Source: Terramyces sp. JEL0728
Taxonomy: Eukaryota; Chytridiomycota; Chytridiomycetes; Rhizophydiales; Terramycetaceae
Assembly: GCA_027603945.1 (NCBI GenBank)
Contig: JADIIU010000083.1
Span: forward strand, 1 to 59,564
Reading direction: 5' to 3'
DNA length: 59,564 nucleotides
Numbering within the stretch: position 1 is the first letter of the stretch; each line of letters begins with the position of its first letter. This document shows, in pieces, positions 747-56,708 of this stretch. The position numbers and the translations under genes are program-made. The notes beneath the pieces were generated by a model. The model did no database searches and was not told where the DNA came from. It worked only from the letters and a program-made list of their open reading frames with translations.

Positions 747-2407
747 ATGAATTTAAATTATAAGCAGCAAATCACAAATCAAGTAAAACAAAATATCAAA
801 AAACTAGCTGTATTTGACTTTGATTCCACTCTATTTAAATCTCCGCTTCCAAACCCAGAAATTTGGTCCAGTCGACTCTTAGGTGATTATTAACTGACAA
901 AGGCAAAATTATATCAGATTGTCAGTGGTTTATGGATAAGCGCACCCTCGATTCTCCATATTTGCCTGAGACTCCAGGTATTTCGAATAATTAATGCAGG
1001 ATTGGAATGGTGGAACGTCCCAATTCTAGAAGAAGCAAATAGAAAAATAGCAAATAGCGATTACTTGGTGATCATGATGGTGATTTCGAGTTAACGCAGA
1101 CTGGAAGGCGAAAGGATTTGTTCCACGATCGATTGGTACACCTTTGTCAGTCAATTGGATTGCATTTTGATTTCTATTTCCTCAAGGAAAACGTAGAATG
1201 CCAATTTCCTACTACTCTAGATTACAAATTCGATGTTTTGAAAACAATATTTTCAACTTATCAGATTGAATTTGTAGATTTGTATGATGACAGAAAGGGG
1301 CATGTTCACAAATTCAAATTATTCCTAGAAACCCATTCGCTTCCACATACCGTACACCATGTAATCATTCCAAAGCACGAGGAGGTGTACATTGAGAAAT
1401 CATTAGAGAAAGAATTGGTTTTCGACCTTATCCAAATTTGCAATGATAGAATCAATAATTACAGACGCACCGTTAGCCAAAGAAGTCTCAGTAGAAATAA
1501 CATCAGCAGTCAATCAATTATAGAAGAAAAAAAAGTTAGTTTTGGAGATGATCTTAATTTGGTTGAAGATCCAGAATCAAGCCCACGAACAACTGATAGT
1601 GCAAAAGCTGTTGATGATTCCCAGCCAGAAGCAAGACACATTCGATTTGATTCACTTGGTGGTGAAGAGGCTAGGAAAAGCCAAGTGACCGAAGAGCAAA
1701 GAAATACCAGAAAGAGTTTATATACTGCTGATAAATTGACTCAAAAGCTAAGCAGTATTTCTGCAAACGATACCACAGGCGATTGTCCGCCTCCGCGAAG
1801 AATCAGTATAAGTATGTTTAGAAAACTCATTGAACTCACCGAAGAAGTTCATTATACCGCGGTGGTCCTAGAAGATCCATCCAGACAGGAATTAATCAAC
1901 AAATTTCAGTGTCCAGAATCGTGGACAACAAAGTGCGAACGAATGACTATCTGCTATGGAAAAGAGGATTTAGATGCAATGAAATACTATGGCAAAGAAG
2001 GCTCCTTGGTTGAATTAGAGGCTACACATGTGTCAAATACTGACCAAGCCATCTCTTGCAAGATCAAAACTCACCTTCCAGATATGCATATTATTGTTCA
2101 TACGAACCCTGATGCTATCCCATCTGATTTTGTATGGCAGAAAATTAGCCCAATTCAGCTGAAAGGGCGGTTGACAGTAAAGAAAACAATAGGAATTAAA
2201 GAAGAAAAATCCCAAAAAAAGGAGGTGGTTTCTATTGGAGGGCTGATCAAGAAACATTATCCGTCTTTGACTGGAAAAGAAATCAAGGTTTTTAAAGAAA
2301 AAGTACAGGAAATGATGAGCAAATCGTTCATGGAGAACAGTGACTCGAACAGGGCAAACATTGAATTCTATATCAAGACTGTAGATTTGAATATTATTTT
2401 TAATTGA
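747..2407 (+). CDS. Swiss Army Knife (SAK) RNA-repair-like protein, HAD domain
   Basis: Four exons (747-882, 903-977, 1000-1079, 1100-2407) encode 532 residues. The introns are 20, 22 and 20 nt. The HAD phosphatase motif I is FDFDSTLF (D24 and D26), followed by SPLPNPEIWSS, a MTGRR motif II-like segment and a YDDRKGHVHKF segment, the layout of the fungal HAD_SAK_1 family. A low-complexity linker (about residues 215-315) leads to a C-terminal part beginning HYTAVVLEDPSRQEL, which resembles the tail region often attached in this family. The family is inferred to act in RNA end repair from domain associations, and no substrate is proven. The first Met at 747 gives an intact motif I only 23 residues in, so the start is well placed. 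Confidence 0.8.
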
Positions 2408-2499
2408 ATAAATAGTTGTAATTGGCAAGAGCATCTATTTGTGAGCACTGCAAATGACATCACGTCAAAAATGTCAAAAAATCTCCGCTTCAAATAGGA

Positions 2500-5280
2500 A
2501 TGCTAAACAATTCGCTGCCCCCACTTCCAGTATCTCAGAAAGGAGCCGTGCCACCAGGAGAGGAAAATATAACATTTCCGGCTATAGAAGACGAGGATGT
2601 GTACCAAAATCACCTTTTGCGTGTTCAAGAAACAATATTGGCATCCACTGATGCCCAACTGGAAGAATTCGCTTCCAAATTTAACGAAACTCAAGTGCTT
2701 TTAAAAAGGACAATGGACGAAAAAGCAAATACTGGGATTGAATTGTACAGAAGCAGAAAAGAACTTGGAATACTGAACAAACAGTTGTCCAAATCGTATA
2801 TGATACTAATATAGACGCTCGATAGTCGAAAAGAGCTCAGCAGAGCAAACAATCCTCAAACAAGAAATTCAGTCGTCCGAGAAAACCATTCAAGAGTACG
2901 AAAGAGAAGTTTACAATCTACAGCAGGAAAATAGAGAAACCAAACGTCAACTAGATGCTTCGCAAACAAACCTGCTGCAAATGCAAGAAATTACCGGAAA
3001 TTACACTTCAGAAGTCAAAATTCAGAAACGGATTTCGACAAAACTACAAAAAGAAATGAGTATTGCTGAACAAAAGTACAAAGAGTCCGAGAATAAATTG
3101 ATTGAAGAAAGAGAACGCAATGAGATCTTGTTTAATGCTCGTAAAGCAGCCGAAGGTGCTTTTGCTCAACAACAATCGGAAGTGCGTGCTGCTCAGCATA
3201 CGATCAATATTCTTCATAAAGAAGTCCGGGAAGTCAATGCTGCTAAACAAGCCATAGAAAAGCAATGGGAAGAAGCGCTGAGTGCAATGTCAAATAGAGA
3301 CAAATCTATACAGCAAATGGCAAATACATTAGAAAAACGAAAAACTGTGCTGATTGAAGCACAAAATGTGAATAAAGTGTACAAGAAAGAAACAAGCGAG
3401 CTCTCGTCCAATTTGGCAAAAAAAGAACAAGAAATCGAAGAATTGAAAAGACAGGCAGCCAATTCACAGTCCTCGTTAGAGTCTACGCAACACAACTACA
3501 ACGAGACTAATCTTGCACTTAACCAAGCAAAACAAATCCAAGACATGCTAAACAAAGAACTCGATGTGTACAAAAAGTTGGACCGGAAAAAGGATGACGA
3601 TATTGAACGAGGAGTAGAAACAGTTGCATCTTTGAAATCTAAAATTGATCGAATGCAGGTTGAGTTTGAAGAAAAGCTTCGGTTCTACATCCCAGTGGTA
3701 AATAAATATTTATTGTAGGAAAAAGCCTTTAAACAAGAAGAAGCAGTTCAAATAGATGCACGGAAAAGGATTAAAGATATTTTGCACGACGAAGATGCCA
3801 AGAACCTGGATTTACGGCATGAAAATGCAAAGTTAAAAATCGCACTGTCTGCAAAGGAAGACGATTTCAAGATTCTCCAAAACACACACAACTCGCTGAA
3901 AGATCAGAATGATGAAATTAATGAGCAATATTCCAGGTTGACAGAAGAAGCAAAGCAAATGGTGTATGCACTTGAAAGAAAAGAACATGATTTGAATTTA
4001 TTCAGAGCTAAAGCTGCTGAAAAAGAAGATGACTACAAGGAGACTTTCCATCTTGCTATTGCGGAACTGCGAGATGATTTGAAGAGCTGCAATATCGAAA
4101 AAGACAGACTACAAACTCTGTGGTTGCAGTCCCAAAAAGAATTAGTCAGCGAGCAAGCAAGATTCCAAAAACTAAAATCTGAAAACGAATTATTAACGAC
4201 CAAACTTGGGATTTCCGAGTGTGTTAAAATCAAAACAGACAAAGGACTGAACGAAATAAAGGTAGAATCACACGAGCATAAACTGGAGACGGCAAAATTA
4301 TACAATGAACTAAAAAGATTACGACCAGTAATTGCCGAACTACAAGAAAAAAATGTAAATTAAAAGTAATTTAGAAAAAACTTGAACACCAATTGCAAGA
4401 AGCTCAATTGAAGTTGGATGAATCAGTACAAAATAATGTCACAACCAAGCAAATGCTGAGAAATGAAATTAGAAGGCTAAGCCAAGACAGAAGCATTTTG
4501 CGCCAAGAGAGATCTGAGCATGACAGAACATTGCTCCATGTGGAAAAAGATGTAATTGTCTACAAAGAGATGATTGATAAACTCAAATCAGAGCGATACG
4601 ATTTGCAGCGGGAAGTATTTACACTAAAAAGACGAACAGAAGAGACAGAAAGAAAGTTTTACGATTATAAACTAAAAACCCGCAAAGTGGAAAAGATTGA
4701 CCAAAAGAAATCATCGTAATTTTTACTAACCTCAGTGTTGAAAATATAGAAAAACAATTCTTGAAACTGGGCCAAGTAAAAGCTTCTATGGAAAGTCTGA
4801 ATTCCGAAGGACGGCAAAGTGTGGTTCCAAAGAAAGAGAAAATAGTCAAAGAGCTGCCTGACTTTGATTCGTGGAGATTAAGAATCGATAGTTTAACCAA
4901 TGAAAAGAAATTCTTGGTCAATGAAAACAGCACTCTAAAAGACCAACTTGCAGAGGTACAGGAATATTCATGTAGATAACGGCTAAAGTGTCGTCAATCC
5001 AAATATCACTAAAACAAACGCAAGAAGAAAACAAGAAACTCGTTGACGTAGAAAACCAAAATATTGAAAAACTAAAGACTTTGGACTTGAGATATGCAAG
5101 AGCAAAGAAAGTCGCTGCTCATATGGAAAAACAAGTCAAAGACGCAAAGCCAAACATTAAAATCGACTATCAATTACTTGAAACCAGCGAACCATCCACA
5201 CAGCTGTTGGCAGCCATTTTAGCAAAGGTATTTCATAGTAACTGTAGGATGTAAAGCAAAACACTGAAATTAAAACTTAG
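2500..5280 (+). CDS. CCDC40: CCDC40 / FAP172-like axonemal ruler coiled-coil protein
   Basis: Seven exons (2500-2795, 2815-3697, 3719-4354, 4375-4715, 4736-4955, 4976-5227, 5248-5280) give 886 residues, nearly all long coiled coil. All six introns are 19-21 nt and the joined frame is continuous. Family landmarks are TGIELYRSRKELGILNKQL (compare the GVELYG...L..LQ motif of CCDC40), SEVKIQKR, and AIEKQWEEALSAMSNRD (compare the conserved QQW..SL..M.RRDEA block). CCDC40 pairs with CCDC39 to form the 96-nm repeat ruler of motile axonemes. Identification is from motifs recalled from the family. Another ciliary coiled-coil protein such as CFAP58 is possible but fits less well. The next gene is also flagellar. 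Confidence 0.68.
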
Positions 5281-5359: not shown

Positions 5360-6516
5360 ATGCCGCAATTATTTGCAAGACTAATTGTCAATTACAAATC
5401 CGAAATTATCGCTGAATATTTCGAGAGATCAAAGTAGGTGTGTTTAACCATAGGGAAGCTGAATCAAAGAGAGAGAGAGAATATCTTGCGGCTATACAAA
5501 TCCAGAGAATTTGGAGAGGAGCAATCGTAAGAAGCAGGATATCCAAGTTGGAGTAACCATTATTAACAAAGAATGGTTGCACGAAAGATCCAGTGTTTCT
5601 ACAAAGATTACTTGTTCAGGAAATGGCAAAAAATACTCGAGATAGAAAGACAAAGACAAAAGAGAGCAAATGAATATGGGGTATTCGCAGTTATGATTCA
5701 GAAAATGTAATCAAGGCTAATACTAGTTGGCGCGGATATCGATCACGCAAATACGTCTTTGATTTCCATGTCAGGCAGGAGCATATCGAAATGGTATTGG
5801 AAAGAGTAGGAGCAATTAACATAGATGGACAAGATGCGGGTGTTTGTAGCAGAAAAAAATGAACACGTAATGGGAGAGCGACACATCATTGAAAGAGTAA
5901 AACGACTGGCAAAAATCGACAGGTATGCCCGCAACAACCACCATTTACTTGGAACCAAAAATGTTCCTGGGGTTCCGCTAATGAACAATTATTTGCCTGA
6001 AATTCTCAAAAACAACTCTGGAATTCAAGAGTGCATTGCAAAGATTGGAAAGAATCCACGGAAAATTATAATCAAGCAAAAAGAAATTGTTCCTCATTCG
6101 CCAAAAGATTTGGAAAAGAAATCACAGGGACCATTCTTGGTAAATTTAACTTACACAGCCAGCCTACAAGTTGAATCTGGTATTGAAGAGACCGTTTAGA
6201 CCGTCGTTAAGAGTACAGACGGATTATTATTGTGAGCAAGAAGCTGCAAAGGAGGAATTCAGACAAACTATTGCTCTGCGATGTAAGACCTCTTTAAAGT
6301 TAGTGAAACGGAAGCCAGATGTCCATGACAAGAAATACCAAGCTTGGCCCGAAATGACAAGTATGTTATGCAACGAACCCTACACACCAACAGACAGCAG
6401 GTAATAGGGGCTAATCTAGGCCATTCAGGAAAAATGGGTTTGAGCAGCCTAAAGATAAACTGAGGATGAAGACTGTTCTACCTCGTCTAGTTACTTTTGA
6501 CGAGCTACACTATTAA
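5360..6516 (+). CDS. SPATA17: SPATA17-like IQ-motif flagellar protein
   Basis: Seven exons (5360-5433, 5454-5552, 5572-5706, 5727-5805, 5825-6139, 6159-6400, 6420-6516) join to 346 residues, close to the roughly 360 of the animal protein. Three IQ motifs appear only after removing the 19-20 nt introns: AAIQIQRIWRGAIVRSR, VARKIQCFYKDYLFRKW and MIQKIWRGYRSRKYVFDF. The family blocks HHLLGTKNVPGVP, SQGPF...RPFRPSLRV and KTVLPRLVTFDELHY follow in the expected order. SPATA17 is a calmodulin-binding axonemal (central apparatus) protein. It lies 79 bp downstream of CCDC40 on the same strand and converges on gamma-tubulin with a 26-bp gap. Confidence 0.85.
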
Positions 6517-6542: not shown

Positions 6543-8088
6543 TTAGTCAAGACGAGTAGTAAGATCAATTGGAGTGCTTTTGGTTGGTCGATTATTATTT
6601 GACAATCCCTGCAGTTAATTCAAGTTACCCAGTTTAGATAGTCTGGAGATTCACAAGCAACGTACTCGTTGATCAAGTTCTGGACCACTTCTCTAGAATC
6701 TTGAAGTTCTTCAAGCACGTCTAGACTTGCAGATTCTCGTTTATACTGCTCTATGAACGCATTACGTTTGCGGAGTTTATCAAATTGGTCGCAGGTTCGC
6801 TTAAAGAGCTGATATTAACAAGGATTACCGAAGATATGCTGGTGTTGTTTGCCAGCATCAATCCAGATACACGGTGAGGTGTTTGTACATATGGACTCTT
6901 TTTAGATAGCGCAACTTGAATTGAAGCTGGACCCCATGGAATAAATTGTGCTAATCTACGTTCTCTGATCCTTAAAAGAGATTTGTGGACCTTGCATTTA
7001 GCATTGATATTACTTCTGTAGGATCTACTTCCCCTTGAATAATATTTAATATGGAAATATAACAGTTCTTGTTTGACGATGCGGTGGATACCATCTTGTT
7101 TTTAGGTTGAAGCAGCCGTCTCATGACATCCAATACCGACGTTTTTCTTACACTTTTGGACTGGATTATTCATAAATTACTAGATCAATATTTTCGCCAG
7201 TGAATGGAGTGTAACTAGTCTGCAAAAAGTGGCATCTTGGAGTAGGAATCAATGAGGCGATTAGCCCCACTAGATCGTTATTCATGTATCCTGGATACCG
7301 CAAAGTTGTAGTACTGGCACTCATCACTGTAGAAACCAGCTGGTTAGTGTGTGCAAATGTTGGGGTTTCGATATGCAATAGATCTGTAACAATTCTGTAC
7401 AAAGCAGCGTTATCCAACACAACCACTGAATCCGCATTTTCAGTTAATCTCTTTAGGGTAAGAATAGAGTTGTAGGGCTGAACAACAACGTCACTGGTTT
7501 CAATACTGTTTGGAAAAACCGAATAAGTCTGTGTAAGTTTCTTTGGATAGCGGTCTGAAATTGCTTCCAATAAATATGAACCTAAACCACTACCAGTACC
7601 ACCAGCAATAGAATGAAGCATCATAAATCCCTGTATTAAATAAATTGTACTTCAAGTGAATCAGATCCGTCAGCTTCACGATCAATCATTTCAATAATTT
7701 CTTCTTGAATACGCTCCCCTCTTGCGTAACCAAAAGCCCAGTTATTGCCAGCACCTCCCCCATCTTTCGACAGAGAAATGTTTTCTGGATTGAACAAGTT
7801 TGAATATGGCGACTGAAGGATATTATTGATTACTCGGGGCTCTAAATCAACCAGGATAGCTCTAGGAATATAGTGTGCATCGTCGGCCTGTATTAAGTAA
7901 GAGTACTTGGTAAAAGAAAACATCTTTTCTGTCTCCGCCTTCAGTTGCAAAATCCTGCAATATACCATCTGGTCTTATACCATGTTCCGCACACAGTCTA
8001 CTCCAGAATTCATGCCCAACTTTTGTTAGTGATTGTTACTCTGATTCCCGCACTGTCCAACTTGAAGTGTGATGATCTCTCTTGGCAT
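6543..8088 (-). CDS. TUBG1: Gamma-tubulin
   Basis: Eight exons on the minus strand (8088-8040, 8019-7907, 7887-7651, 7630-7181, 7160-7014, 6990-6829, 6808-6629, 6608-6543) encode 467 residues. The protein starts [18 protein letters not shown] and carries the tubulin GTP loop [41 protein letters not shown] and the gamma-specific [19 protein letters not shown] and [14 protein letters not shown]. Introns are 19, 20 or 23 nt. Gamma-tubulin nucleates microtubules at the spindle pole body and basal body. It sits tail to tail with SPATA17. The start is fixed by the invariant MPREI N-terminus. Confidence 0.96.
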
Positions 8089-10501: not shown

Positions 10502-11370
10502 ATGAATTGGCTATTCCTCCTCCAGAGCTCAGTGTCAGCACTAACAATCGCCCAAACAGGTGGCATTTGCGGATCACAATCTGCCTCTGCAGGTTCAGCT
10601 GCAGCCTGTCCCCAGCGTCAATGTTGTTCAGCAAGCGGATACTGGTATTGCCTATTTAATTTAGTGGAGCTGATATCGCTCATTGTGGGGTTGGCTGCCA
10701 ATCTGGATTTGGACTATGCCAAAACGATGTTATTACAGCGAACCAAACAAATTCGCCAATTCCAGTAGAATCAAATGTGAATACTGACCCACAGTCAACT
10801 GGGTCTGATACAAGCAACATTGACAATAAACCTACAAGAGACGCACCTGGAGAACCTAGTTTAGGAACAAAATTCCTGGTCTCTGCACTTATTCTAGGCG
10901 GCCTTCTTGCATTTATTGGAGTTCTAAGTACAGTCTTGTACATGTCGAGTAAAAAGAAGAAGGATGCTGTTCCGTATTTCGACAAGGAAGTGGAAACTTA
11001 TCCTGACAATGATAAACCTAAATACAGTCCGCCACCGCCAAGTAGTCCTCGTAGACCAGGCCAAGTTTCTCCAGCAAGCTCTCCACAGAGTCTTAGCCAA
11101 GTATCCCCGGCAAGAACGCAAGCACCTTCAGTAGCCTACACACAAAATACAATAACAAGTTCAATTCCATCACCGCCAAAAGACGACTACTACAACCAAG
11201 ATTATAGACCTTACTCTCCATCTGCGCCTTCAACAGTGGTGCTATCAGAAGACGCACAGAAAATATTGCTAAAGAGAGCTTTACAGCAAAAGAATGATGA
11301 TTTAGATAGACAGGAAACAGCCAACTCTACTCAAGCTAATTATGCCAAGAGTGAACACGGCAATCAATAA
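10502..11370 (+). CDS. Membrane-anchored CBM18 (hevein-type chitin-binding) protein
   Basis: Two exons (10502-10644, 10665-11370; intron 20 nt) encode 282 residues. After a signal-like N-terminus comes one CBM18 domain whose Cys pattern (GGICG..., CPQRQCCSASGYCG, HCGVGCQSGFGLCQ) is completed only by splicing: the intron splits the second Cys of GYCG. A Pro/Asn/Thr linker leads to one membrane span (about 125-147, FLVSALILGGLLAFIGVL) and a Pro/Ser/Gln-rich cytosolic tail. CBM18 binds chitin, so a cell-wall-facing adhesin or sensor role is plausible. An upstream in-frame Met exists, but it would add a poor signal sequence. AATAAA overlaps the stop codon. Confidence 0.85.
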
Positions 11371-11492
11371 AATGTATCTTGTTTTGTGGTTGATGAATTT
11401 TGCAGATTAGGGTTGAATTCCGAATCTCAGTTACTTGTCAAAGCTGTTTCCCACCAAGCTGCTATTTCAATCTTGACGCGTAATTTTGACAA

Positions 11493-12179: not shown

Positions 12180-12214
12180 CAAATGAGTTTAAATATACCC
12201 AATAAACGTTAAAT

Positions 12215-15405: not shown

Positions 15406-15495
15406 TAATAAATTCAATCTTGCCGTGCAATTTCTAGTGTGTTCCAACGTCAGTTATTTTGGTTGTCGATAATTTATTTTTTTTTGCAATTCAAA

Positions 15496-30541: not shown

Positions 30542-30607
30542 CATAGCTCAACATGATGCAAGTTATAGATGACGACGAAGAAAAAATACCTGGAAATTGC
30601 TTGTAGT

Positions 30608-43479: not shown

Positions 43480-46151
43480 ATGAAAATATCTGTTCTGGCA
43501 ACAGCGGCGTCTGCGGTACTATATACGGTAACAAAACCTTCTGCCCATTACAGCTCTCCTGTGCCAAGTGGGAACACCATTAATAATGACTGCAACTCTT
43601 TTGGATGCCAGTTATCTTCGCCAACAAAGAAATACATAGTACCTGTCTTTAACCCTAGGCAGTCATGCAGCATGATTGTTTGATGATGATTTACACTGGT
43701 AACATGAAGAGCGTAATTTGGAAATCAAAAACATGGCAGGGGGATCACGACTGCTTCTTGGCACCACAAACTGATGGACAATTAGTCTTTTATAGGAATG
43801 ACAGCGGTACCATTGTTCCGATTCAATCGCTGAATCCAAACTCTGCTTCAAAGAAAGCAACTTCTTATACTTTGAATATGCAGGATGACGGAAATCTGGT
43901 TTACAAGGCAGATTCTGGTAAAATAGTTTGGTCAAGTGTCCAAGTCAAACCATTGTATACGTACACTCAGCCGTCTGTTTATTTTCCAACTGTGATGCAG
44001 TCAGGAACGACGTTGAATAGCGATTGTAACAATGGCTCTGGATGTTTCCTCGCTTCGCCGTCTCAAGAGTTCAAGTTGGTAATGCAACACGATTGCAAGA
44101 TGATCCTCTTCATGAATGATCCCTTCCAGTCTGTATTTGCAACAAACACTTGGTTGGGCGATGGACACAAATGCTTTATGGCGGCGCAAACCAATGGCCA
44201 ATTAGTAGTGTATAGAAATGATGGTCCAGCTCCTGTAGCAATGTGGACTTCCAATCCAGCACCTGCACAAATCGCAGATGGCTATACTTTGACTCTCCAA
44301 GAAAATGGCAAGCTGATTTGGGCAGACAGCAAGAATAATGTACTTTGGCAAACTGATTCTCAAGTTATTCCCTTGGCAAACAACTATACTCAAGCTGCAG
44401 GCTGCCCATCCACTCCATTTGTTACTGATGCAAGAATTGACTGCAAAGGAACGGATTACCAATCTTGCTATTCAAAGGGTTGTTGCTGGGACCCTCCTCC
44501 AAAAGGACAAAAGGGTATTCCTTGCTATAAAAACACAAAAAACAAATGGTTTGGCATTCCAGGATCGGATACCCCCGTTACTACTGCTGTCACTGCGAGT
44601 AACCCCGGCCGTTTCGATGTGGTAACCACTCTTCCTGTCGCTCCACTTGGAATCTCGCTGATGCCAACCACCAACAATGCGGTTATTCTCGAAAGAATAT
44701 CATGGGGCTATGATTCCACTTATCATTCCTATATAATGGATATGGCCAGTTTCCAACTTTCACCGTTATATGCATACTCTGATATATTTTGCAGTGGAGG
44801 TGTTTTACTTTCAGATGGCACTTTGTTGAATATCGGCGGATGGGTTGGAGATCCATCCTTGAAAGGTGTGCGTTACCTGCCCATTAATGGCGATTGGAAG
44901 CAGAATGCCAAAGTTATGGCTTTGGAAAAAGCACGTTGGTGTAAGTTTTATTTGATTGTAGATCCTTCTGCACTATTACTTCCTTCCGGTAAAGTCTGGG
45001 CTGTTGGCGGAGCTCCGTCTTCATTGAATGGAGTAAATGAGCCAACTGTTGAAATACTCCCTAATCCAAATCAAGATCCAGTTGTATATGTTCCGTTCTT
45101 GGCAGAAACTATAGGCCACAACTTTTATCCTTTCGTTTATTATATTCCTGCCGACCAATACCAGCCAAAACCATTCATATGGCTATTTGCCGGATCTCAA
45201 TCTAAGCTTTATGATCCAGATACTTTTGTTGCATTTGCAAACAACACTAATGTCCCATCTCTATCTGGCAAGAAAGAATACAGAAGTTATCCCTTCTCTG
45301 GCACTTCTTCTATGCTTCCTCTAATTGCTGATGCGGACAACAACAACCCACCGGTACAAATATTGATTTGCGGTGGATCTGATGGAGTAAACGCTTTGGA
45401 TACCTGTGTTACTACCACTCCTTCCCAAGCTGAAAATTCAACTTGGTTAGTGGAGAAAATGCCAATTCCTAGAGTATTGGGTGACTTGGTTTCCCTTCCA
45501 GATCAGACATTCTTGCTGATCAATGGCGCTACTAAAGGTCAAGCTGGATTTGGTTCTCAAAGCAAAGCAACCTTGAATCCAGTGCTATATGACCCAAGCG
45601 CTCCCCTAAACCAAAGATTCACTGTATTAAAAGCATCTCCAATTCAAAGATTGTACCACTCTGAAGCAATGTTGGCACTGGACGGTAGAGTAGTTGTATC
45701 TGGATCCACTCCAAATCAAGACTCTATGGATGATCCTACACTCACTATCCATGAAAATGAGCGCAGAGTAGAAATGTTTACACCTCCATATCTGCTTGAC
45801 GGCAGAAATCCACCACTCCTTTTAAATGCACCAGGTAAATGGGACTACAACAATGAATACACTCTGGATGTTTCCCTTCCATCTGGCAAAACAGATAAAT
45901 TGTCTGTCAGTTTGATCAATCCAGGCTTTGTTACTCACAACAACCATATGGGAAATACTCATTATGTTCTCAAAATCGAATCTGTCAAACAAGACGGAAA
46001 CAAATTTAAATTAAATGTGCGATCGCCAAAGTCGCCTCAAACTGCAGTACCAAGTTACTACCAATTGTGGGTTGTAGATGACGGGAAGCCTTGCAAGATG
46101 GCTACGTGGGTTCAACTGGTTGCTGATACGATCCAATGGCCAAAGATTTAG
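43480..46151 (+). CDS. Secreted glyoxal oxidase (AA5) with B-lectin and trefoil domains
   Basis: Three exons (43480-43638, 43659-44940, 44962-46151; introns 20 and 21 nt) encode 876 residues. A signal peptide is followed by two bulb-type lectin-like repeats (about 25-125 and 130-290; NNDCNSFGC.L.SP and NSDCNNGSGCFLASP), a P-type trefoil domain (about 302-350; six Cys including SKGCCWDPP), then a copper-radical oxidase propeller. Expected active-site residues are Cys about 431 (FCSGG), Tyr about 481 (RWY, formed by splicing), Tyr-His about 712-713 (RLYHSEAM) and His about 806 (VTHNNHMG). Glyoxal oxidases oxidise aldehydes and release H2O2. AATAAA follows the stop. Confidence 0.9.
44941..44961 (+). 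other. 21-nt stopless intron splitting the catalytic Tyr codon
   Basis: The intron is in frame and without a stop, so it reads as coding. Retained, it gives ARWCKFYLIVDPSALLLP. Removed, T joins AT to give RWYPSALLLPSGKVWAVGG, the conserved RWY motif of glyoxal and galactose oxidases, whose Tyr is crosslinked to Cys in the cofactor. Confidence 0.87.
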
Positions 46152-49100
46152 AATAAAAAGTCAAGATTTTAGATTTGGGTGACTCAAAAGGTAGCGTATA
46201 GGAGCTCAGCCAAGAATACAGCAAGATGCATTGATATCTCCAAGTGAGTCATGAAATTCGGAGGCTGAGAATCTCGAGTCAGCCTCATAGTTAAATGTTT
46301 TACCTCAAAATGTTACAAGCCGATTCCCCAATGGAAAATCTAAACAACGACTTGCTAGAAAACAGAATCCTGCACTACCTCAGTGGTATTGATATTTATA
46401 AACTCTCATGTACAAACAAATCCCTGCAAACTCGCCTGTTGCAATTCTACCAATTGGTAACAGAATTCCAAATCCATCCGTCAAACACATGGCCGACACT
46501 AAATCTCATTTCCGCACAAGAACATGCTTTGATTTCCAGCAAAGATCTAAAAAATACCGCAGAGTTTACTGGCGAGTACCTGAAGCGACTGCAAGAAATG
46601 GATTTACAGAAATGGCGGTTTCTGGCAATCAAAATATCCAACACTACCTTTTCCGCAATCGCAGATACAATTCCAAAGACCGAACATTTAGAGCTGGTCT
46701 ACTTGGACTCTTCTGAGCCAAACCAATTTTTGAAACGCCAGGCAAACAAAATCTGCAATTACAAAGTAAAGCTTGGGAACAAGGATGTAGAGAGGATATT
46801 TGACATTGCAAAAGAAAATGAAAGCCTGACCGAATTGCACTTGTCTCTTGAAGACATGAATGGCAAAATGAACCTGTTTAAACACCACTTGCCAAGCTCT
46901 TTTATTACCAATCTGACGCTAAATAACTGTAGCATCAATGACGATCTCATGTCTATTTTGTGCGATGGACTGCGAACCTCAAAATTAAATTATTTAGACT
47001 TGTCGTCTAATTCTATTGGTGATGCCGGTATGGTTACTCTTGCGCCTGTGTTGTTAGAGTGTCAGTTGGAAACGCTTTTGTTGACAAGCAATAGCATCCA
47101 CAAAGAAGGTATCGATATACTTGCAGAATACCTTTTGAATTCAAAGTTGAAATATTTGGATATCCAAGACAATAGCTTTTTCCGCAATGACCTGTCTGCG
47201 TTTTTCATGATATTAAGCAGTACTCGACTGGAAGAATTCCATTACAAGAAATCTATCGGATTGGAGGAACAGCAAGCCTTTGTAATTGGCATTGCCAATT
47301 CCAAATTGAAAAAGGTTACCATTGGACTAGAAAATGAAGTTTTGGATCAATTTATCAAGGCACTACCACTATCCCAATTGACTGATTTTACTTTTGCTAC
47401 TCATATTGGAGACTATGGTTGCAAGCAAATAGCGGACAATATCGATCTCATTACATTGAAAAGAATTTCTTTGTTTGATTCAAAAATCACTGAATTTGGA
47501 ATTGAAATGCTATTTGCCAAGTTACACAGGAACTTTTCAATTCAAGAGTTGGATTTATCCTACAACCAATTTGGCAATTATGGAATTCACTTGATCACTA
47601 AATTCCTGCCTTCTACCAACCTCAAGAGTCTCATTTTAGATACGTGTGCAGCAGACGGCGGATTTGTGAAACTAGCGGCAAGTATACAAAACTCACAGTT
47701 GATTAAATTCAAGATGCGCAATACCTACCTTGGACGGGAAGGAGTCCAAGCTTTTGAGCAAATATTGGGCAAATGCAGCTTGCGATTTGTTGACGTATCG
47801 TGGGGTCCATTTAGTGTTCAAAAGGAAATGTACGGCAAGTTTCCTCAAATCAAAATATGTTGAATAAATTGTATTTGTTTTTACCAGAATTTCACACGCA
47901 TGAGCTTATTGGCATTGTGTGATAGTATTTTGTAAAGTCATGCCAATCAGTAGCACCAAGCGAGCCACAGCTGCAATACTGATATACTACCCTTCCGAGA
48001 TATATAACCACCGAATTTCTTGCTTTTATTTACAAACACAAAAGCATCAAGTGGGAAATTCTCGGATACTGCGTTCCGAACCTTGCAGTGCGGTTTGGAT
48101 CGTGACCCAACTAGTTAAAAAGCTTTTGGTTTGCAGCATGAATTAAAAATAAATGACTGTTGCAAAAGTGCAAATCAAAACAAATTTTTTCAACTATGTT
48201 ACATTAGGATGGTTAACTCCACTGTTATTAAAAGGTAGAAAAACCCCACTTTCTGATATTGATCTGTATGAATTAGCAGAAAAGGACAAGTCAGAAGCGA
48301 TATTGCAAAAATTTCGTATCTATTGGGATCAATTAAAGCGTCACAAGGAGTCTCCAGATACCGCCAAAGCTCCAAACTTTTTCCTTACTTTGCTATCTAT
48401 TTTGATGTGGCCCGTAATTGGAGTGTCGCTGTGTGCAACGGCTACTGTGTTCTTGGGACTGTATACCCCAAAAGCCCTTCAGCAGCTGCTGAATTATGTT
48501 GATCCAAACTTTACCGGATCGTATTGGGTGGATGATGGGATTGGACTAGCTTTTATATTATTCGCTTTCCAAGCACTAGAAGCAATATTTGGAAACCTGC
48601 AGCAAACAGTTTTTAGGAGGGTCGTCCAAATTGCCCATTCAATTACAATTGGCTCTATATACGAAAAAAGTTTAAAGTTATCCACAAAATCAAAGATGCA
48701 ATTCCCCGAAGGAAAGATTTTGAATATGGTCAACCAAGATGCACAAAATATCATTGAAGTGTTGTACTTTCTGCCCCAAATTATCTTGCTCCCAACTCAA
48801 ATCATTTTATCAATGTACTTTTTGGCTGATTTGGTTGGAAAGTCAATTTGGTCTGGAATCGGCGTGTTTGTAGGGATTGCGATCATTGCGCTGGGGTCCT
48901 CTCCGTTCGCTGCAAAAGGTTTCACCAGATGGTACTCTTAAACTTACCTTAGGTTTACCGGGGCTGATAAAAGAATTGGTATCCTTAGAGAAATGCTGTA
49001 CGGGATCAAAATTGTCAAGTTTCAAGCAATGGAAGATTTCTTTAGAAAAAAGATTAACGAAGCTCGTAAAGTCCAAATAGACAGTATCCGGATGGTTGCT

Positions 49101-50641
49101 ATTGTTCTTGGTGGAGTTCAGGGTCTTGCAGATATTGCTCCAACAATTATTTCAGTTACTATCTTTGCTGTTTATGCTAGTTATGGAAATGCAATGTCTC
49201 CAGCAATTATTTTCCCTGCACTAAACTATATATCCGGCGTAGTGGAGCCAATCAATACAATCCAAGCTCTTATTTCCAGCACAATCACTGGTAAGGTTTC
49301 GTTCCAAAGAGTGGGAGAATTCTTGAATGCAGATGAAAATGATAATGCCAGAGAGACTAGTGCACAAGGTGATTCTAAGCCAGCACTTGTTTTGAAAAAC
49401 GTTACTTGGAGATGGGAGGATGCCAACAAGGAAAAGACTAAGGATACGGAGACTGATGAAAAGGAAAGCACGACTTCTTCAGAAGCCTTCCACATGAAAG
49501 AAATTGATATGGTAATCCAGCGTGGAAAGCTTATTGGCGTCGTTGGATCAATTGGCAGTGGAAAAAGTTCACTTTTCTCTGGATTGATTGGCGAATCAGT
49601 TCACATTGGTGGCGACTATGAAATCAATGGTAGAATAGCTTACTGCGCTCAAATTCCTTGGATTTTGACTGGCAGCATAGAAAAGAACATTTTGCTGAAT
49701 CTGCCTCTTGATCAAGCAAAACTAGATAGGGTTGTTGCCGTTAGCGGACTGGAAAGCGATTTAAAAGTATTGGCCGATGGAATCAAAACTGAAATTGGCG
49801 AAAACGGCGTCAACTTGTCTGGCGGGCAAAAAGCGCGAGTATCTCTGGCGAGAAGCTTGTATTCAGACGCTGATATTTACCTGATGGATGATCCTATTGC
49901 TGCGCTGGATGCACAGGTTGGCAGACATGTTTTTTCCAAAGCTGTAAAGGGGTATTTGGCAGACAGGACTGTGCTTCTTGCAACCCATCAGCTGCATTAT
50001 CTTCAAGAAGTAGATGAAATCATTGTACTAGAACAAGGCAGCTTGGTTGAATACGGAACATTTGCCGAGTTGAACAGCAAACCGGATGGCATCTTGTGCA
50101 AGATGTTGGAAGCATACAGATTTGATGAAGAAGTGGAAAAGAAGGAAGAAAAGGAAAAGGTAAAGGAAAAGAAGGAAGAAGTGGAAATAGGCAAAGAATT
50201 TATCGCCAAAGAAGAAAAGAATGATGGCGGAATCAAATTTGAAGTCTACTGGACTTATCTCAAAAACCTGTCTATTCCTATGCTTGCGGTATTGTCTGTT
50301 CTCTACTTTATGTCTCTGGGCATCCAAATTTTCCTTCCAATTTGGCTATCTAAATGGACACAGGATGTTACTGGCGACACCAACCACTATCTTTCGGTTT
50401 ATACAATCTTTGGAGGTGTCTATGCTGTTACAAACAGTAAATATTTTCTAATGTAGCTTCGTTGTTTTGGGCGTTAATCTTCATGTCAATTTTTGCTAGT
50501 ATCAAGTACCACGATGGTGCTATGGAGTCACTGTACCATGCGCCAATGGATTTCTTTGATAGAAACCCTATCGGTAGAATTATCAACCGGTTTTCTGCTG
50601 ACGTCCAATCTCTTGATATCGGTGTTATTTCAGTCATATTG
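46059..50641 (+). repeat. Segmental duplication, copy 1
   Basis: Copy 1 runs from the last codons of the glyoxal oxidase (TACCAATTGTGGG) through the F-box/LRR gene and the first two-thirds of the ABC transporter. Copy 2 is at 50683-55302. The offset is 4624 bp over the LRR gene and 4660 bp over the transporter, so copy 2 carries a net 36-bp gain between them. Confidence 0.93.
46295..47863 (+). CDS. F-box / leucine-rich-repeat (RNI-like) protein, copy 1
   Basis: An intronless 522-residue protein. An F-box-like N-terminus (LENRILHYLSGIDIYKLSCTN) precedes ribonuclease-inhibitor-type LRRs, clearest at about 210-285 (LNYLDLSSNSIGDAGM, LETLLLTSNSIHKEGI, LKYLDIQDNSF) and 400-500 (IQELDLSYNQFGNYGI, LKSLILDTC). 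Met1, Met6 or Met13 could each be the true start. Possibly a ubiquitin-ligase adaptor. It differs from copy 2 by only two residues (T/A in GMVTLAP, I/T in GIDILAEY). AATAAA overlaps the stop. Confidence 0.8.
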   Translation: MFYLKMLQADSPMENLNNDLLENRILHYLSGIDIYKLSCTNKSLQTRLLQFYQLVTEFQIHPSNTWPTLNLISAQEHALISSKDLKNTAEFTGEYLKRLQEMDLQKWRFLAIKISNTTFSAIADTIPKTEHLELVYLDSSEPNQFLKRQANKICNYKVKLGNKDVERIFDIAKENESLTELHLSLEDMNGKMNLFKHHLPSSFITNLTLNNCSINDDLMSILCDGLRTSKLNYLDLSSNSIGDAGMVTLAPVLLECQLETLLLTSNSIHKEGIDILAEYLLNSKLKYLDIQDNSFFRNDLSAFFMILSSTRLEEFHYKKSIGLEEQQAFVIGIANSKLKKVTIGLENEVLDQFIKALPLSQLTDFTFATHIGDYGCKQIADNIDLITLKRISLFDSKITEFGIEMLFAKLHRNFSIQELDLSYNQFGNYGIHLITKFLPSTNLKSLILDTCAADGGFVKLAASIQNSQLIKFKMRNTYLGREGVQAFEQILGKCSLRFVDVSWGPFSVQKEMYGKFPQIKIC

Positions 50642-50644
50642 TAA
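48153..50644 (+). pseudogene. Truncated ABCC transporter, copy 1
   Basis: Exons 48153-48931, 48953-50436 and 50457-50644 encode 816 residues. TMD1 and NBD1 are intact (Walker A GSIGSGKSS, signature LSGGQKARVSLARS, Walker B DIYLMDDPIAALD). The second membrane domain breaks off after DIGVISVIL, where the duplication joint creates a TAA. NBD2 is absent. It is four residues different from copy 2 over the shared part. It could still make a half-sized protein, but ABCC exporters need both halves, so it is probably non-functional. Confidence 0.85.
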
Positions 50645-50775
50645 AATCACCAAAAACCAGTGATATCGCAATTCCGTTGTATTACCAATTGTGGGTTGTT
50701 GATGACGGGAAGCCTTGCAAGATGGCTATGTGGGTTCAACTGGTTGCTGATACGATCCAATGGCCAAAGATTTAG
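50644..50775 (+). pseudogene. C-terminal relic of a second glyoxal oxidase paralogue
   Basis: 44 codons in frame from the joint: KSPKTSDIAIPLYYQLWVV, then DDGKPCKMAMWVQLVADTIQ and WPKI, stop at 50773-50775. The intact gene reads RSPKSPQTAVPSYYQLWVV and then the same. The first 14 residues differ widely while the rest is nearly identical, so this is the tail of a different paralogue or a recombined one. It is cut off upstream by the joint with the ABC copy. Confidence 0.8.
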
Positions 50776-53700
50776 AATAAAAAGTCAAGATTTTAGATTT
50801 GGGTGACTCAAAAGGTAGCGTATAGGAGCTCAGCCAAGAATACAGCAAGATGCATTGATATCTCCAAGTGAGTCATGAAATTCGGAGGCTGAGAATCTCG
50901 AGTCAGCCTCATAGTTAAATGTTTTACCTCAAAATGTTACAAGCCGATTCCCCAATGGAAAATCTAAACAACGACTTGCTAGAAAACAGAATCTTGCACT
51001 ACCTCAGTGGTATTGATATTTATAAACTCTCATGTACAAACAAATCCCTGCAAACTCGCCTGTTGCAATTCTACCAATTGGTAACAGAATTCCAAATCCA
51101 TCCGTCAAACACATGGCCGACACTAAATCTCATTTCCGCACAAGAACATGCTTTGATTTCCAGCAAAGATCTAAAAAATACCGCAGAGTTTACTGGCGAG
51201 TACCTGAAGCGACTGCAAGAAATGGATTTACAGAAATGGCGGTTTCTGGCAATCAAAATATCCAACACTACCTTTTCCGCAATCGCAGATACAATTCCAA
51301 AGACCGAACATTTAGAGCTGGTCTACTTGGACTCTTCTGAGCCAAACCAATTTTTGAAACGCCAGGCAAACAAAATCTGCAATTACAAAGTAAAGCTTGG
51401 GAACAAGGATGTAGAGCGGATATTTGACATTGCAAAAGAAAATGAAAGCCTGACCGAATTGCACTTGTCTCTTGAAGACATGAATGGCAAAATGAACCTG
51501 TTTAAACACCACTTGCCAAGCTCTTTTATTACCAATCTGACGCTAAATAACTGTAGCATCAATGACGATCTCATGTCTATTTTGTGCGATGGACTGCGAA
51601 CCTCAAAATTAAATTATTTAGACTTGTCGTCTAATTCTATTGGTGATGCCGGTATGGTTGCTCTTGCGCCTGTGCTGTTAGAGTGTCAGTTGGAAACGCT
51701 TTTGTTGACAAGCAATAGCATCCACAAAGAAGGTATCGACACACTTGCAGAATACCTTTTGAATTCAAAGTTGAAATATTTGGATATCCAAGACAATAGT
51801 TTTTTCCGCAATGACCTGTCTGCATTTTTCATGATATTAAGCAGTACTCGACTGGAAGAATTCCATTACAAGAAATCTATCGGATTGGAAGAACAGCAAG
51901 CCTTTGTAATTGGCATTGCTAATTCCAAATTGAAAAAAGTTACCATTGGACTAGAAAATGAAGTTTTGGATCAATTTATCAAGGCATTACCACTATCCCA
52001 ATTGACTGATTTTACTTTTGCTACTCATATTGGAGACTATGGTTGCAAGCAAATAGCGGACAATATCGATCTCATTACATTGAAAAGAATTTCTTTGTTT
52101 GATTCAAAAATCACTGAATTTGGAATTGAAATGCTATTTGCCAAGTTACACAGGAACTTTTCAATTCAAGAGTTGGATTTATCTTACAACCAATTTGGCA
52201 ATTATGGAATTCACTTGATCACTAAATTCCTGCCTTCTACCAACCTCAAAAGTCTCATTTTAGATACGTGTGCAGCAGACGGCGGATTTGTGAAACTAGC
52301 GGCAAGTATACAAAACTCACAGTTGATTAAATTCAAGATGCGCAATACCTACCTTGGACGGGAAGGAGTCCAAGCTTTTGAGCAAATATTGGGCAAATGC
52401 AGCTTGCGATTTGTTGACGTATCGTGGGGTCCATTTAGTGTTCAAAAGGAAATGTACGGCAAGTTTCCTCAAATCAAAATATGTTGAATAAAATTGTATT
52501 TGTTTTTACCAGAATTTCACACGCATGAGCTTATCGACACTATTGGCATTGTGTGATAATATTTTGTGAAGTCTGATGCCAATCAGTAGCACCAAGCGAG
52601 TCACAGCTGCAATACTGATATATACTCTTGCCTAGCGTGACTCTTCCGAGATACCTCCACTACCATAACTACCGAATTCTTGCTTTTATTTACAAACACA
52701 AAAGCATCAAGTGGAAAATTTTCGGATACTGCGTTCCGAACCTTGCAGTGCGGTTTGGATCGTGACCCAACTAGTTAAAAAGCTTTTGATTTGCAGCATG
52801 AATTAAAAATAAATGACTGTTGCAAAAGTGCAAATCAAAACAAATTTTTTCAACTATGTTACATTAGGATGGTTAACTCCACTGCTATTAAAAGGTAGAA
52901 AAACCCCACTTTCTGATATTGATCTGTATGAATTAGCAGAAAAGGACAAGTCAGAAGCGATATTGCAAAAATTTCGTATCTATTGGGATCAATTAAAGCG
53001 TCACAAGGAGTCTCCAGATACCGCCAAAGCTCCAAACTTTTTCCTTACTTTGCTATCTATTTTGATGTGGCCCGTAATTGGAGTGTCGCTGTGTGCAACG
53101 GCTACTGTGTTCTTGGGGTTGTATACCCCAAAAGCCCTTCAGCAGCTGCTGAATTATGTTGATCCAAATTTTACCGGATCGTATTGGGTGGATAATGGGA
53201 TTGGACTAGCTTTTATATTATTCGCTTTCCAAGCACTAGAAGCAATTTTTGGAAACTTGCAGCAAACAATTTTTAGGAGGGTCGTCCAAATTGCCCATTC
53301 AATTACAATTGGCTCTATATACGAAAAAAGTTTAAAGTTATCCACAAAATCAAAGATGCAATTCCCCGAAGGAAAGATTTTGAATATGGTCAACCAAGAT
53401 GCACAAAATATCATTGAAGTGTTGTACTTTCTGCCCCAAATTATCTTGCTCCCAACTCAAATCATTTTATCAATGTACTTTTTGGCTGATTTGGTTGGAA
53501 AGTCAATTTGGTCTGGAATCGGCGTGTTTGTAGGGATTGCGATCATTGCGCTGGGTTCCTCTCCGTTCGCTGCAAAAGGTTTCACCAGATGGTACTCTTA
53601 AACTTACCTTAGGTTTACCGGGGCTGACAAAAGAATTGGTATCCTTAGAGAAATGCTGTATGGGATCAAAATTGTCAAGTTTCAAGCAATGGAAGATTTC

Positions 53701-55302
53701 TTTAGAAAAAAGATTAACGAAGCTCGTAAAGTCCAAATAGACAGTATCCGGATGGTTGCTATTGTTCTTGGCGGAGTTCAGGGGCTTGCAGATATTGCTC
53801 CAACAATTATTTCAGTTACTATCTTTGCTGTTTACGCTAGTTATGGAAATGCAATGTCTCCAGCAATTATTTTCCCTGCGCTAAACTATATATCCGGCGT
53901 AGTGGAGCCAATCAATACAATCCAAGCTCTTATTTCCAGCACAATCACTGGTAAGGTTTCGTTCCAAAGAGTGGGAGAATTCTTGAATGCAGATGAAAAT
54001 GATAATGCCAGAGAGACTAGTGCACAAGGTGATTCTAAGCCAGCACTTGTTTTGAAAAACGTTACTTGGAGATGGGAGGATGCCAACAAGGAAAAGACTA
54101 AGGATACGGAGACTGATGAAAAGGAAAGCACGACTTCTTCAGAAGCCTTCCACATGAAAGAAATTGATATGGTAATCCAGCGTGGAAAGCTTATTGGCGT
54201 CGTTGGATCAATTGGCAGTGGAAAAAGTTCACTTTTCTCTGGATTGATTGGCGAATCAGTTCACATTGGTGGCGACTATGAAATCAACGGTAGAATAGCT
54301 TACTGCGCTCAAATTCCTTGGATCCTGACTGGCAGCATAGAAAAGAACATTTTGCTCAATCTGCCTCTTGATCAAGCAAAACTAGACAGGGTTGTTGCCG
54401 TTAGCGGACTGGAAAGCGATTTAAAAGTATTGGCCGATGGAATCAAAACTGAAATTGGCGAAAACGGCGTCAACTTGTCTGGCGGGCAAAAAGCGCGAGT
54501 ATCTCTGGCGAGAAGTTTGTATTCAGACGCTGATATTTACTTGATGGATGATCCTATTGCTGCGCTGGATGCACAGGTTGGTAGACATGTTTTTTCCAAA
54601 GCTGTAAAGGGGTATTTGGCAGACAGGACTGTGCTTCTTGCAACTCATCAGCTGCATTATCTTCAAGAAGTAGATGAAATCATTGTACTAGAACAAGGCA
54701 GCTTGGTTGAATACGGAACATTTGCCGAGTTGAACAGCAAACCGGATGGCATCTTGTGCAAGATGTTGGAAGCATACAGATTTGACGAAGAAGTGGAAAA
54801 GAAGGAAGAAAAGGAAAAGGAAAAGGAAAAGAAGGAAGAAGTTGAAATAGGCAAAGAGTTTATTGCCAAAGAAGAAAAGAATGATGGCGGAATCAAATTT
54901 GAAGTCTACTGGACCTATCTCAAAAACCTGTCTATTCCTATGCTTGCGGTATTGTCTGTTCTCTACTTTGTGTCTCTGGGCATCCAAATTTTCCTTCCAA
55001 TTTGGCTATCTAAATGGACACAGGATGTTACTGGTGATACCAACCACTATCTTTCGGTTTATACAATTTTTGGAGGTGTCTATGCTGTTACAAATAGTAA
55101 ATATTTTCTAATGTAGCTTCGTTGTTTTGGGCGTTAATCTTCATGTCAATTTTTGCTAGTATCAAGTACCACGATGGTGCTATGGAATCATTGTACCATG
55201 CGCCAATGGATTTCTTTGATAGAAACCCTATCGGTAGAATCATCAACCGGTTTTCTGCTGACGTCCAATCTCTTGATATCGGTGTTATTTCAGTCATATT
55301 GT
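50683..55302 (+). repeat. Segmental duplication, copy 2
   Basis: Near-identical to 46059-50641, with scattered mostly silent substitutions. Identity ends after GTCATATTGT in the transporter, where copy 2 continues into the full gene and copy 1 into the glyoxal oxidase relic. Confidence 0.93.
50919..52487 (+). CDS. F-box / leucine-rich-repeat (RNI-like) protein, copy 2
   Basis: An intronless 522-residue near-twin of the gene at 46295-47863. It has the same F-box-like start and LRR layout. Only two amino-acid differences are seen, against more silent ones (for example CTG/TTG and GAG/GAA changes), which suggests a recent duplication under protein-level constraint or gene conversion. AATAAA overlaps the stop. 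Confidence 0.8.
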   Translation: MFYLKMLQADSPMENLNNDLLENRILHYLSGIDIYKLSCTNKSLQTRLLQFYQLVTEFQIHPSNTWPTLNLISAQEHALISSKDLKNTAEFTGEYLKRLQEMDLQKWRFLAIKISNTTFSAIADTIPKTEHLELVYLDSSEPNQFLKRQANKICNYKVKLGNKDVERIFDIAKENESLTELHLSLEDMNGKMNLFKHHLPSSFITNLTLNNCSINDDLMSILCDGLRTSKLNYLDLSSNSIGDAGMVALAPVLLECQLETLLLTSNSIHKEGIDTLAEYLLNSKLKYLDIQDNSFFRNDLSAFFMILSSTRLEEFHYKKSIGLEEQQAFVIGIANSKLKKVTIGLENEVLDQFIKALPLSQLTDFTFATHIGDYGCKQIADNIDLITLKRISLFDSKITEFGIEMLFAKLHRNFSIQELDLSYNQFGNYGIHLITKFLPSTNLKSLILDTCAADGGFVKLAASIQNSQLIKFKMRNTYLGREGVQAFEQILGKCSLRFVDVSWGPFSVQKEMYGKFPQIKIC

Positions 55303-56708
55303 CTACTTTTTTGTCATTCACTCAGGTTTTGGTTTCTGTTGTGATGGTCTGTCAGGCGTCGTTGTACCTGATCAGTAATTAATTGTTGACAATAGTTGCG
55401 TTCGTTGTCATTGCTGCAGTATTCTACATGATCTTTACAGTTTACCAGCCAAACAATAGAGAATTAAAGCGACTGAATTCAAATAGAAGATCTCCACTGG
55501 ACTCTCACATTACGGAGTCACTTGCTGGTACTTCAACTATTGCTGCATACAATGTTCAAAAGGATTTTATCGCCAAACAAAGAGAGCTGACTGATCTATA
55601 CACTGCCAGTAACTATATCTTTCGCTCTGCCAGTATTTGGTTTGCGTGGAGGATTTCTGTACTGTCTTCTGTAATCACTTTGCTATTGGCGATCTTTGGC
55701 GGTATCAGCAAAAACTATTCAGTTTCGCTCGCTGCTTCTGTGGGTCTGGGTCTGTCTTTTGCGACGAGAATGTCCAACAGCATCAACTTTTTCTTGGTTA
55801 GTGTGGGCAATATCGAATCAGAACTCAACAGTGTTGAAAGATTGCACCACTATCGATTCAAGTTGGCATCTGAAGCTCCTTTTACAGCATCAAATGATCC
55901 AAAGGCAGATCAATGGCCAACTAAAGGCGAACTGGAAATCAAAAATCTTGAACTTTGTTACCCAGCCAGACCAGATTTTGCAGTAATCAAGGATCTGTCA
56001 TTTAGCGTCAAGTCAGGTGAAAAAATTGGGGTTGTCGGTAGAACCGGTTCGGGCAAATCAACTTTAGTTTCTGCCTTTTTTAGAATCATTGAGGCTAGCA
56101 AAGGACAAATCTATATTGACGGTCAAGATATTACCAAACTTGGATTGAATACTCTCCGCTCTAGATTGCAAATGATTCCCCAAGAGCCTATTTTGTTTGA
56201 AGGTTCATTCCGTTCCAATTTGGATTACACTGGTACATTCGACGATGAAGAATTATGGAAAGTGTTGGAGTACGCAGGCTTAAAGTCATTTGTATCAGAG
56301 TTTGAAGACAAACTGGATGCCAAAGTCACTCTAAATGGGGAAAACTTGTCTGTTGGACAGCGTCAGTTGATATGTCTTGCTAGAGCTATTCTTAAAAAAC
56401 CCAAATTCATGGTGATGGACGAAGCAACCTCAAGTGTCGATGGTGATTCGGATGAACTTATACAAAAGGCAATCAAGGCACACTTTGCTGACACTACAAT
56501 TATCAGCATAGCTCATAGACTTAATACAATTGCTGAGTTTGACAGAGTGCTGGTACTAGATCAAGGCATTCTGAAAGAATTTGATGCACCGCATGTATTG
56601 TTGAGCACTCCTGGGTCAATCTTTGCAGAGTTGGCCGACGCTTCTGGACCAGCAAATTCACAATTATTACGTGAACTAGCTAAAGCTTACTACTTGTCTA
56701 AACACTAA
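52813..56708 (+). CDS. ABCC (MRP-type) full ABC transporter
   Basis: Four exons (52813-53591, 53613-55096, 55117-55374, 55396-56708; introns 21, 20 and 21 nt) encode 1277 residues. The order is TMD1, NBD1, TMD2, NBD2 without an N-terminal TMD0, as in short MRP/Yor1-type exporters. The N-terminus has the ABCC entry motif LGWLTPLLLKGRKTPL. NBD1: GSIGSGKSS, LSGGQKARVSLARS, YLMDDPIAALD. NBD2: GRTGSGKSTL, LSVGQRQLICLARA, FMVMDEATSSVD. The asymmetric NBD1 (Asp rather than Glu after Walker B) is typical of ABCC. The linker has a Lys/Glu-rich run. It probably exports organic anions or drugs. TAA overlaps AATAAA. Confidence 0.93.

Follow-up and report, generated by a model that had tools for sequence, protein, structure and literature searches.

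We analyzed the whole of contig C83 (JADIIU010000083.1; 59,564 nucleotides (nt), hereafter the window) of Terramyces sp. JEL0728, a free-living chytrid fungus of the family Terramycetaceae (Chytridiomycota, Rhizophydiales), together with stretches of its other contigs, and found that many of the genes appear to be interrupted by introns of about 20 nt, well below the usual length of fungal introns. Judged from the sequence, these are very probably nuclear U2-type spliceosomal introns that have shrunk to 18–23 nt throughout the genome, which comprises 15,016,339 bases in a draft assembly of 231 contigs. A sequence-only reading of the window had proposed spliceosomal-type introns of narrow length range in a zoosporic fungus, with the branch near the 3' end, and this description held genome-wide in our sample.

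Intron lengths and controls

We used our own gene finder, which learns codon usage from long open reading frames and tracks stop codons over junctions. In a blind run on the window, L001 and twenty 10-kb stretches of other contigs, any GT..AG segment of 10–300 nt could be skipped at equal cost. Among the 298 resulting gaps, 119 were 19–22 nt long (33, 48, 26 and 12 at 19, 20, 21 and 22 nt, respectively); outside this spike there were 12 gaps of 10–17 nt, 3 of 18 nt, none of 23 nt and 10 of 24–31 nt. Introns of 18 or 21 nt that contain no stop codon go undetected by this finder. Lookalikes of 21 nt inside called coding sequence numbered 6 against 2.1 expected, and those of 18 nt showed no excess (1 against 2.3 expected).

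To compare GT..AG with 11 other end pairs, we ran the finder with lengths of 10–100 nt. GT..AG yielded 134 gaps of 18–23 nt, and each of the other pairs yielded 9–24. The reverse-strand form, CT..AC, gave only 19, which ties the GT..AG signal to the coding strand. When no end dinucleotide was required the run was weak and showed no clear spike (8 gaps at 20 nt; GT..AG in 4 of 18 gaps of 18–23 nt). The small size and precise ends of the segments would also suit elimination from DNA or bypass in translation in place of splicing. This explanation is highly improbable given the tie of GT..AG to the coding strand, a branch motif that matches U2 and the presence of splicing machinery. TA..TA, the ends of internal eliminated sequences, bounded 22 segments of 18–23 nt, which is at background. 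Although only GT and AG had been imposed, a fuller pattern emerged in the short introns, in which GTAAxT is followed by YTAAY, 1–4 nt and AG.

Intron lengths and branch positions were tabulated in a run that scored the learnt motif and allowed GC donors over 286,467 bases from 29 sources. Without a length preference, 205 of 251 introns were 18–23 nt long and none fell at 24–36 nt; two calls were shorter than 18 nt (10 and 15 nt, taken for finder errors), and 44 were at least 37 nt. With a length preference, 327 of 337 introns were 18–23 nt long. Nearly all introns therefore lie within a few nucleotides of one another in the ∼15–23-nt range that marks an ultra-short system. In a 200-kb sample the corresponding fractions were 152 of 183 without the preference and 242 of 248 with it, and tiny introns were carried by 52 of 93 and 67 of 98 gene models, respectively. 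Extrapolation from this sample gives roughly 11,000–18,000 tiny introns in the whole genome. A stringent pattern, GTAAGTN{3,33}CTAACN{2,4}AG, which admits lengths of 18–50 nt, matched 63 times in 15 Mb; 50 matches were 19–22 nt long (13, 26, 7 and 4 at 19, 20, 21 and 22 nt), and 13 were spread over 23–50 nt.

Removal of the introns restored known proteins. Over residues 1–450 the spliced gamma-tubulin could be aligned with a solved structure of this protein; the alignment has two small gaps, and one of these is near a junction. The gamma-tubulin deposited for Terramyces sp. JEL0728 (418 residues) equals our model (467 residues) minus one 49-residue exon, which sits between two tiny introns (6991–7180); five of the seven introns are thus shared with another annotation. 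Among other named fungi, the closest match came from Boothiomyces sp. JEL0866 and was 98% identical over 96%. A Boothiomyces protein (P0002) ends in NWVGKR, as though read into an unrecognized donor. Spliced IDH1 aligned over residues 29–367 to yeast IDH1, covering the last two junctions, and spliced NAD(P)H-hydrate dehydratase aligned over residues 18–310 to a solved homologue, through a GC-AG junction. Pfam found the expected domains in five of six spliced proteins, among them Mak10 and TPR_NAA35 in NAA35; a homologue search with NAA35 at a strict cut-off of 1e-50 gave no match and was uninformative. An assembly or sequencing artefact might be suspected in a draft of 231 contigs. With these proteins restored, and with the same motif and length recurring in the window and in the 20 stretches of other contigs, such an artefact is scarcely credible.

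Intron anatomy and splicing machinery

Read on the coding strand, the introns are bounded by GT-AG or GC-AG, with 8 GC-AG cases among the 337 calls, one of them a doubtful 167-nt call. The donor is GTAAxT (GT, rarely GC), the branch is YTAAY and the acceptor AG mostly follows T or C. In the 205 introns called without a length preference, the branch A lies at position 14 (100 introns), 15 (87), 16 (15) or 17 (3), so that 187 are at 14–15 and none is closer than 14; it is followed by 4 (11 introns), 5 (96), 6 (94) or 7 nt (4). The run with a length preference added one branch A at position 13. A branch-like motif close to AG had been correctly described from the sequence alone, but the claim that donor and branch nearly touch did not stand, as no branch A was placed before position 14 in these 205 introns. 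The GC-AG introns have the same spacing, and the spacer from donor to branch is 41% T. The branch search was restricted to 4–9 nt from the intron end, with a distance prior learnt on the same introns. The fixed stringent pattern agrees with the motif-scored spacing: in 44 distinct matches of 19–22 nt, with position 13 permitted, the branch A was at 14 (24), 15 (18), 16 (1) or 17 (1).

Apparent introns shorter than 18 nt were rejected, since those of 14, 15 and 17 nt can be read as GC-AG introns with lengths of 20, 21 and 23 nt. The outlier in SF1 was the only one checked against orthologues; a GT reading would retain two residues there, and precisely these two are missing from the orthologues. 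Two near-identical gene copies on different contigs (L022 and L023) have a tiny intron at position 1513 that is 21 nt long in one and 20 nt in the other; in this single case the remaining gaps of the 3.1-kb alignment lie further downstream.

Longer introns are rare. The 13 genome-wide pattern matches above 22 nt occupy 12 inspected places, one match being a second copy. The finder called two introns, of 48 and 49 nt, that are flanked on either side by coding frame; a 44-nt intron had codon-score support only, a 31-nt intron was weak and the remaining long matches were not clearly supported. Elsewhere we found introns of 44, 45 and 53 nt in the 20-stretch sample and, in the window, the single longer intron that had been claimed (60 nt, 13564–13623). 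These belong to a rare 44–60-nt class with strong donor and branch (13564–13623; L003:4814–4858; L011:2767–2819; L015:4605–4648; and cases in L036, L041 and L045). The few cases suggest a gap at about 24–43 nt between the tiny and the long class, into which three unchecked calls at 37–41 nt from the run without a length preference would fall. Hairpins that might shorten longer introns were not supported: 17 folded introns showed no general excess over dinucleotide shuffles (lowest p values, 0.04 and 0.05).

Nor did we obtain specific evidence that exons avoid intron-like decoys. Coding sequence has fewer YTAAY words than synonymous shuffles (586 against 862), but this depletion is unspecific: in the coding sequence of the sample it extends to AATAA and to TAAG and reverse-complement words, and it does not include GTAAT. 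Since TAA words are depleted in general, the depletion of YTAAY reflects a general TAA or codon-pair effect. Depletion of TAA-containing words relative to synonymous shuffles is strong in the sample, above all for TAAG.

The splicing machinery that we found looks ordinary. U2 is present with a score well over the cut-off, and its branch-pairing stretch GUAGUA, complementary to YTAAY, is intact. U5 also scored well over its cut-off; beside its gene stand two tRNA genes of equal score (L024:1901–1982 and 2330–2411). SF1 shares 96% identity with its Boothiomyces counterpart across 86% of the query and can be aligned with those of other chytrids, and Slu7 and Prp18 both pass their family cut-offs. 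The splicing-factor gene models themselves contain tiny introns. All four proteins sought were found, with U2AF-large under its cut-off, so the loss of many spliceosomal proteins seen in mikrocytids is not apparent here. No group I or II self-splicing intron matched Rfam at the gathering score in the window.

Several observations weigh against our interpretation. Of the 251 calls made without a length preference, the 44 of at least 37 nt include three at 37–41 nt; most of the 44 are taken for finder errors, individually unchecked. The backwards form of the stringent pattern, used as its control, matched 116 times against 63 for the true pattern; the total is therefore not enriched, and the signal is the concentration at 19–22 nt. 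The branch spacing is partly built in by the 4–9-nt limit and the learnt prior. A U2AF-large-like match, spanning 68–471 of 510 positions, remained below the cut-off (251.7 against 310.3 bits), perhaps because the gene is split by introns, and this family also gave a weak signal in 2 of 14 control genomes. U1 was not found in the genome, and two patterns and one DNA query for U6 gave no match; neither result is evidence of absence. Two 27-bit U6 candidates below the cut-off are copies of one repeated stretch that overlaps a tiny-intron candidate and were taken for chance.

The modified U2/SF1/U2AF set suggested from the sequence alone has no support so far. A related explanation holds that the introns are real but that their removal needs altered parts, be it in U1, U6, SF3B1 or the branching factors, or by substitution of an SPF45-like factor for U2AF. 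The stretch after the branch is too short to hold a normal polypyrimidine tract, and this and the failure to find U1 and U6 would fit the idea. Regions of Stentor branching factors near the active site are reported as not conserved (PMC9505925), and human SPF45 is reported to act without U2AF on short introns (PMC8363638). Against these points stand U2 and U5 well over cut-off, an ordinary-looking SF1 and the presence of Slu7 and Prp18, and we consider altered parts unlikely.

In the interpretation that we favor, U1/U6 and SF1/U2 would recognize the intron as a single unit, i.e. by intron definition. A polypyrimidine tract would hardly fit between branch and AG. The spliceosome therefore probably takes the first AG beside the branch as the 3' splice site, and the T-rich spacer upstream of the branch may replace the tract. 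The 14 nt from the 5' splice site to the branch A are probably the closest approach that the spliceosome allows, and with the 4 nt after it they would give the 18-nt minimum intron. More tentatively, an otherwise ordinary spliceosome could work almost throughout at a hard geometric limit that two rulers define, one of at least 14 nt up to the branch A and one of at least 4 nt beyond it, with a dead zone at ∼24–43 nt and a different mode of recognition for the 44–60-nt class.

Genes of the window

The standard run placed 55 introns of 19–23 nt in 21 gene models of the window, and a relaxed run added seven in a SPATA17-like gene and two in the gene at 31177–31769. With one stop-free 18-nt candidate the total is 65 tiny introns, eight of them weakly supported, one short of the 66 introns claimed by the sequence-only reading. 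Lengths are given below in parentheses, and gene models listed without a name are unassigned.

On the forward strand, a gene model at 747–2407 has introns at 883–902 (20), 978–999 (22) and 1080–1099 (20). The model of a long coiled-coil-like protein (2500–5280, forward) contains introns at 2796–2814 (19), 3698–3718 (21), 4355–4374, 4716–4735, 4956–4975 and 5228–5247 (20 each). The SPATA17-like gene (5360–6516, forward), which takes its name from the earlier reading, has a weak relaxed model (score −1.1) with seven introns of 19–21 nt (5434–5453, 5553–5571, 5707–5726, 5806–5824, 6140–6158, 6283–6303 and 6401–6419) in place of the six of 19–20 nt that had been described; for its protein, Pfam supports an IQ motif only (26.4 bits against a cut-off of 20.3). 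The gamma-tubulin model (6543–8088, reverse) has introns at 8020–8039 (20), 7888–7906 (19), 7631–7650 (20), 7161–7180 (20), 6991–7013 (23), 6809–6828 (20) and 6609–6628 (20).

A gene model at 10502–11370 (forward) has one intron, 10645–10664 (20); a later model extends it to 12179 via a doubtful 167-nt GC intron. This call at 11360 and a 53-nt call at 32860 look like finder errors. The WD-repeat gene model at 13036–15405 (forward), which we take to be TUP1-like, holds the 60-nt intron at 13564–13623 and tiny introns at 13244–13263 (20), 14123–14142 (20), 14531–14551 (21) and 15024–15043 (20). Its candidate 18-nt stop-free intron (14378–14395, forward) lies in a WD repeat, and its removal restores what we take to be a WD-like repeat. 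The model at 15496–16264 (forward) has introns at 16033–16052 and 16164–16183 (20). Three related genes in tandem at 16614–22021, presumably secreted tyrosinases judging from a motif, had no introns called.

A membrane-transporter-like gene model (22926–24481, reverse) has introns at 23663–23682 (20) and 23129–23149 (21). NAD isocitrate dehydrogenase subunit 1 (26482–27643, reverse), placed by gene model and alignment, has introns at 27559–27577 (19), 27327–27345 (19) and 26857–26876 (20), and ribosomal protein L36e (28470–28823, reverse; gene model and Pfam) has one at 28554–28574 (21). The model at 29459–30606 (forward) has an intron at 30527–30546 (20). The relaxed model at 31177–31769 (forward), with no Pfam match, has introns at 31284–31302 (19) and 31577–31598 (22).

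The ankyrin-repeat-like gene model (31939–33316, forward) has introns at 32483–32501 and 32781–32799 (19). Where the finder called 53 nt in this gene, a 20-nt GT..TG segment (32860–32879, forward) has donor and branch in register; its removal joins N-G-H-I of what we assume to be the ankyrin repeat. With TG at its end instead of AG, it is a candidate non-canonical intron or damaged allele. NAA35 (33742–35483, forward; gene model and Pfam) has the five introns of exactly 19 nt that had been claimed (33794–33812, 34023–34041, 34581–34599, 34931–34949 and 35200–35218). A protein kinase (35498–37203, reverse) is covered by two models, with a Pfam kinase domain in the first part and introns at 36896–36915, 36563–36582 and 36238–36257 (20).

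The model at 37676–38487 (forward) has an intron at 38408–38427 (20). ATP-dependent NAD(P)H-hydrate dehydratase (38741–39793, forward), supported by gene model, Pfam and alignment, has introns at 38875–38894 (20), 39101–39120 (20, GC-AG), 39321–39339 (19), 39455–39473 (19) and 39583–39603 (21). Three further forward models have one 20-nt intron each: 40154–41211 (intron 40250–40269), 41445–42115 (41731–41750) and 43480–46151 (43639–43658), the last presumably an oxidase-like secreted protein.

Two ABC-transporter-like gene models follow on the forward strand, a truncated copy 1 (48153–50775) with introns at 48932–48952 (21), 50437–50456 (20) and 50641–50660 (20), and copy 2 (52813–56708) with introns at 53592–53612 (21), 55097–55116 (20) and 55375–55395 (21). 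They belong to a tandem duplication (46295–50775 and 50919–56708) of a gene for a 522-residue protein plus the ABC-transporter-like gene, identical in 4282 of 4383 columns over the compared part, with gaps solely in the intergenic stretch that separates them. Truncated copy 1 and the gene at 43480–46151 share their final residues.

Known tiny introns and the minimum intron length

Tiny spliceosomal introns are known already. Chlorarachniophyte nucleomorphs have about 800 introns of 18–21 nt (cited in PMC10245619), an almost equal narrow range, but in a relict endosymbiont nucleus as opposed to a 15-Mb fungal nucleus. Mikrocytid introns, 16–17 nt long and 224 in number in Mikrocytos mackini, are also very uniform; there the spliceosome is reduced, with 17–19 proteins found (PMC10245619), whereas the extrapolated introns of Terramyces are far more numerous and its SF1, Slu7 and Prp18 look ordinary. 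Stentor shares tiny introns genome-wide, GU..AG ends and a nearly fixed branch A. Its introns are 15–16 nt long with the branch A at 10–11 and without a strong consensus (PMC9505925), in contrast to position 14–15 in a clear YTAAY in Terramyces. Short introns are likewise the rule in Paramecium and Nyctotherus, but these are ciliates with slightly longer introns of about 25 nt (PMC5014332).

Encephalitozoon cuniculi, a precedent that the sequence-only reading did not mention, resembles Terramyces in its fungal lineage, tiny introns and strict motifs; it differs in being an intracellular parasite with few introns (37) over a wide length range (22–76 nt) (PMC3629993). In a fungal survey, short introns are exemplified by Cryptococcus neoformans, whose introns have a mean of 63 bp (PMC8476143). 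In the open-licence literature, as far as its text was available, we found tiny introns reported neither for Terramyces or Boothiomyces nor for any other member of the Rhizophydiales or of the chytrids, and no report of a chytrid system that combines an ordinary-looking SF1 and U2 with tight two-part spacing.

Usual minimum-intron settings in annotation and read mapping will damage gene models in this genome, and the deposited gamma-tubulin is already without one exon. The introns bear on the lower size limit of spliceosomal introns and on whether introns near that limit need a reduced or altered spliceosome. As a fungus with thousands of 20-nt introns and recognizable SF1, Slu7, Prp18 and U2, Terramyces makes this geometry open to experiment. 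If the two-ruler reading is true, the minimum size of an intron would be set by the geometry of the core spliceosome and not by genome reduction or loss of factors.

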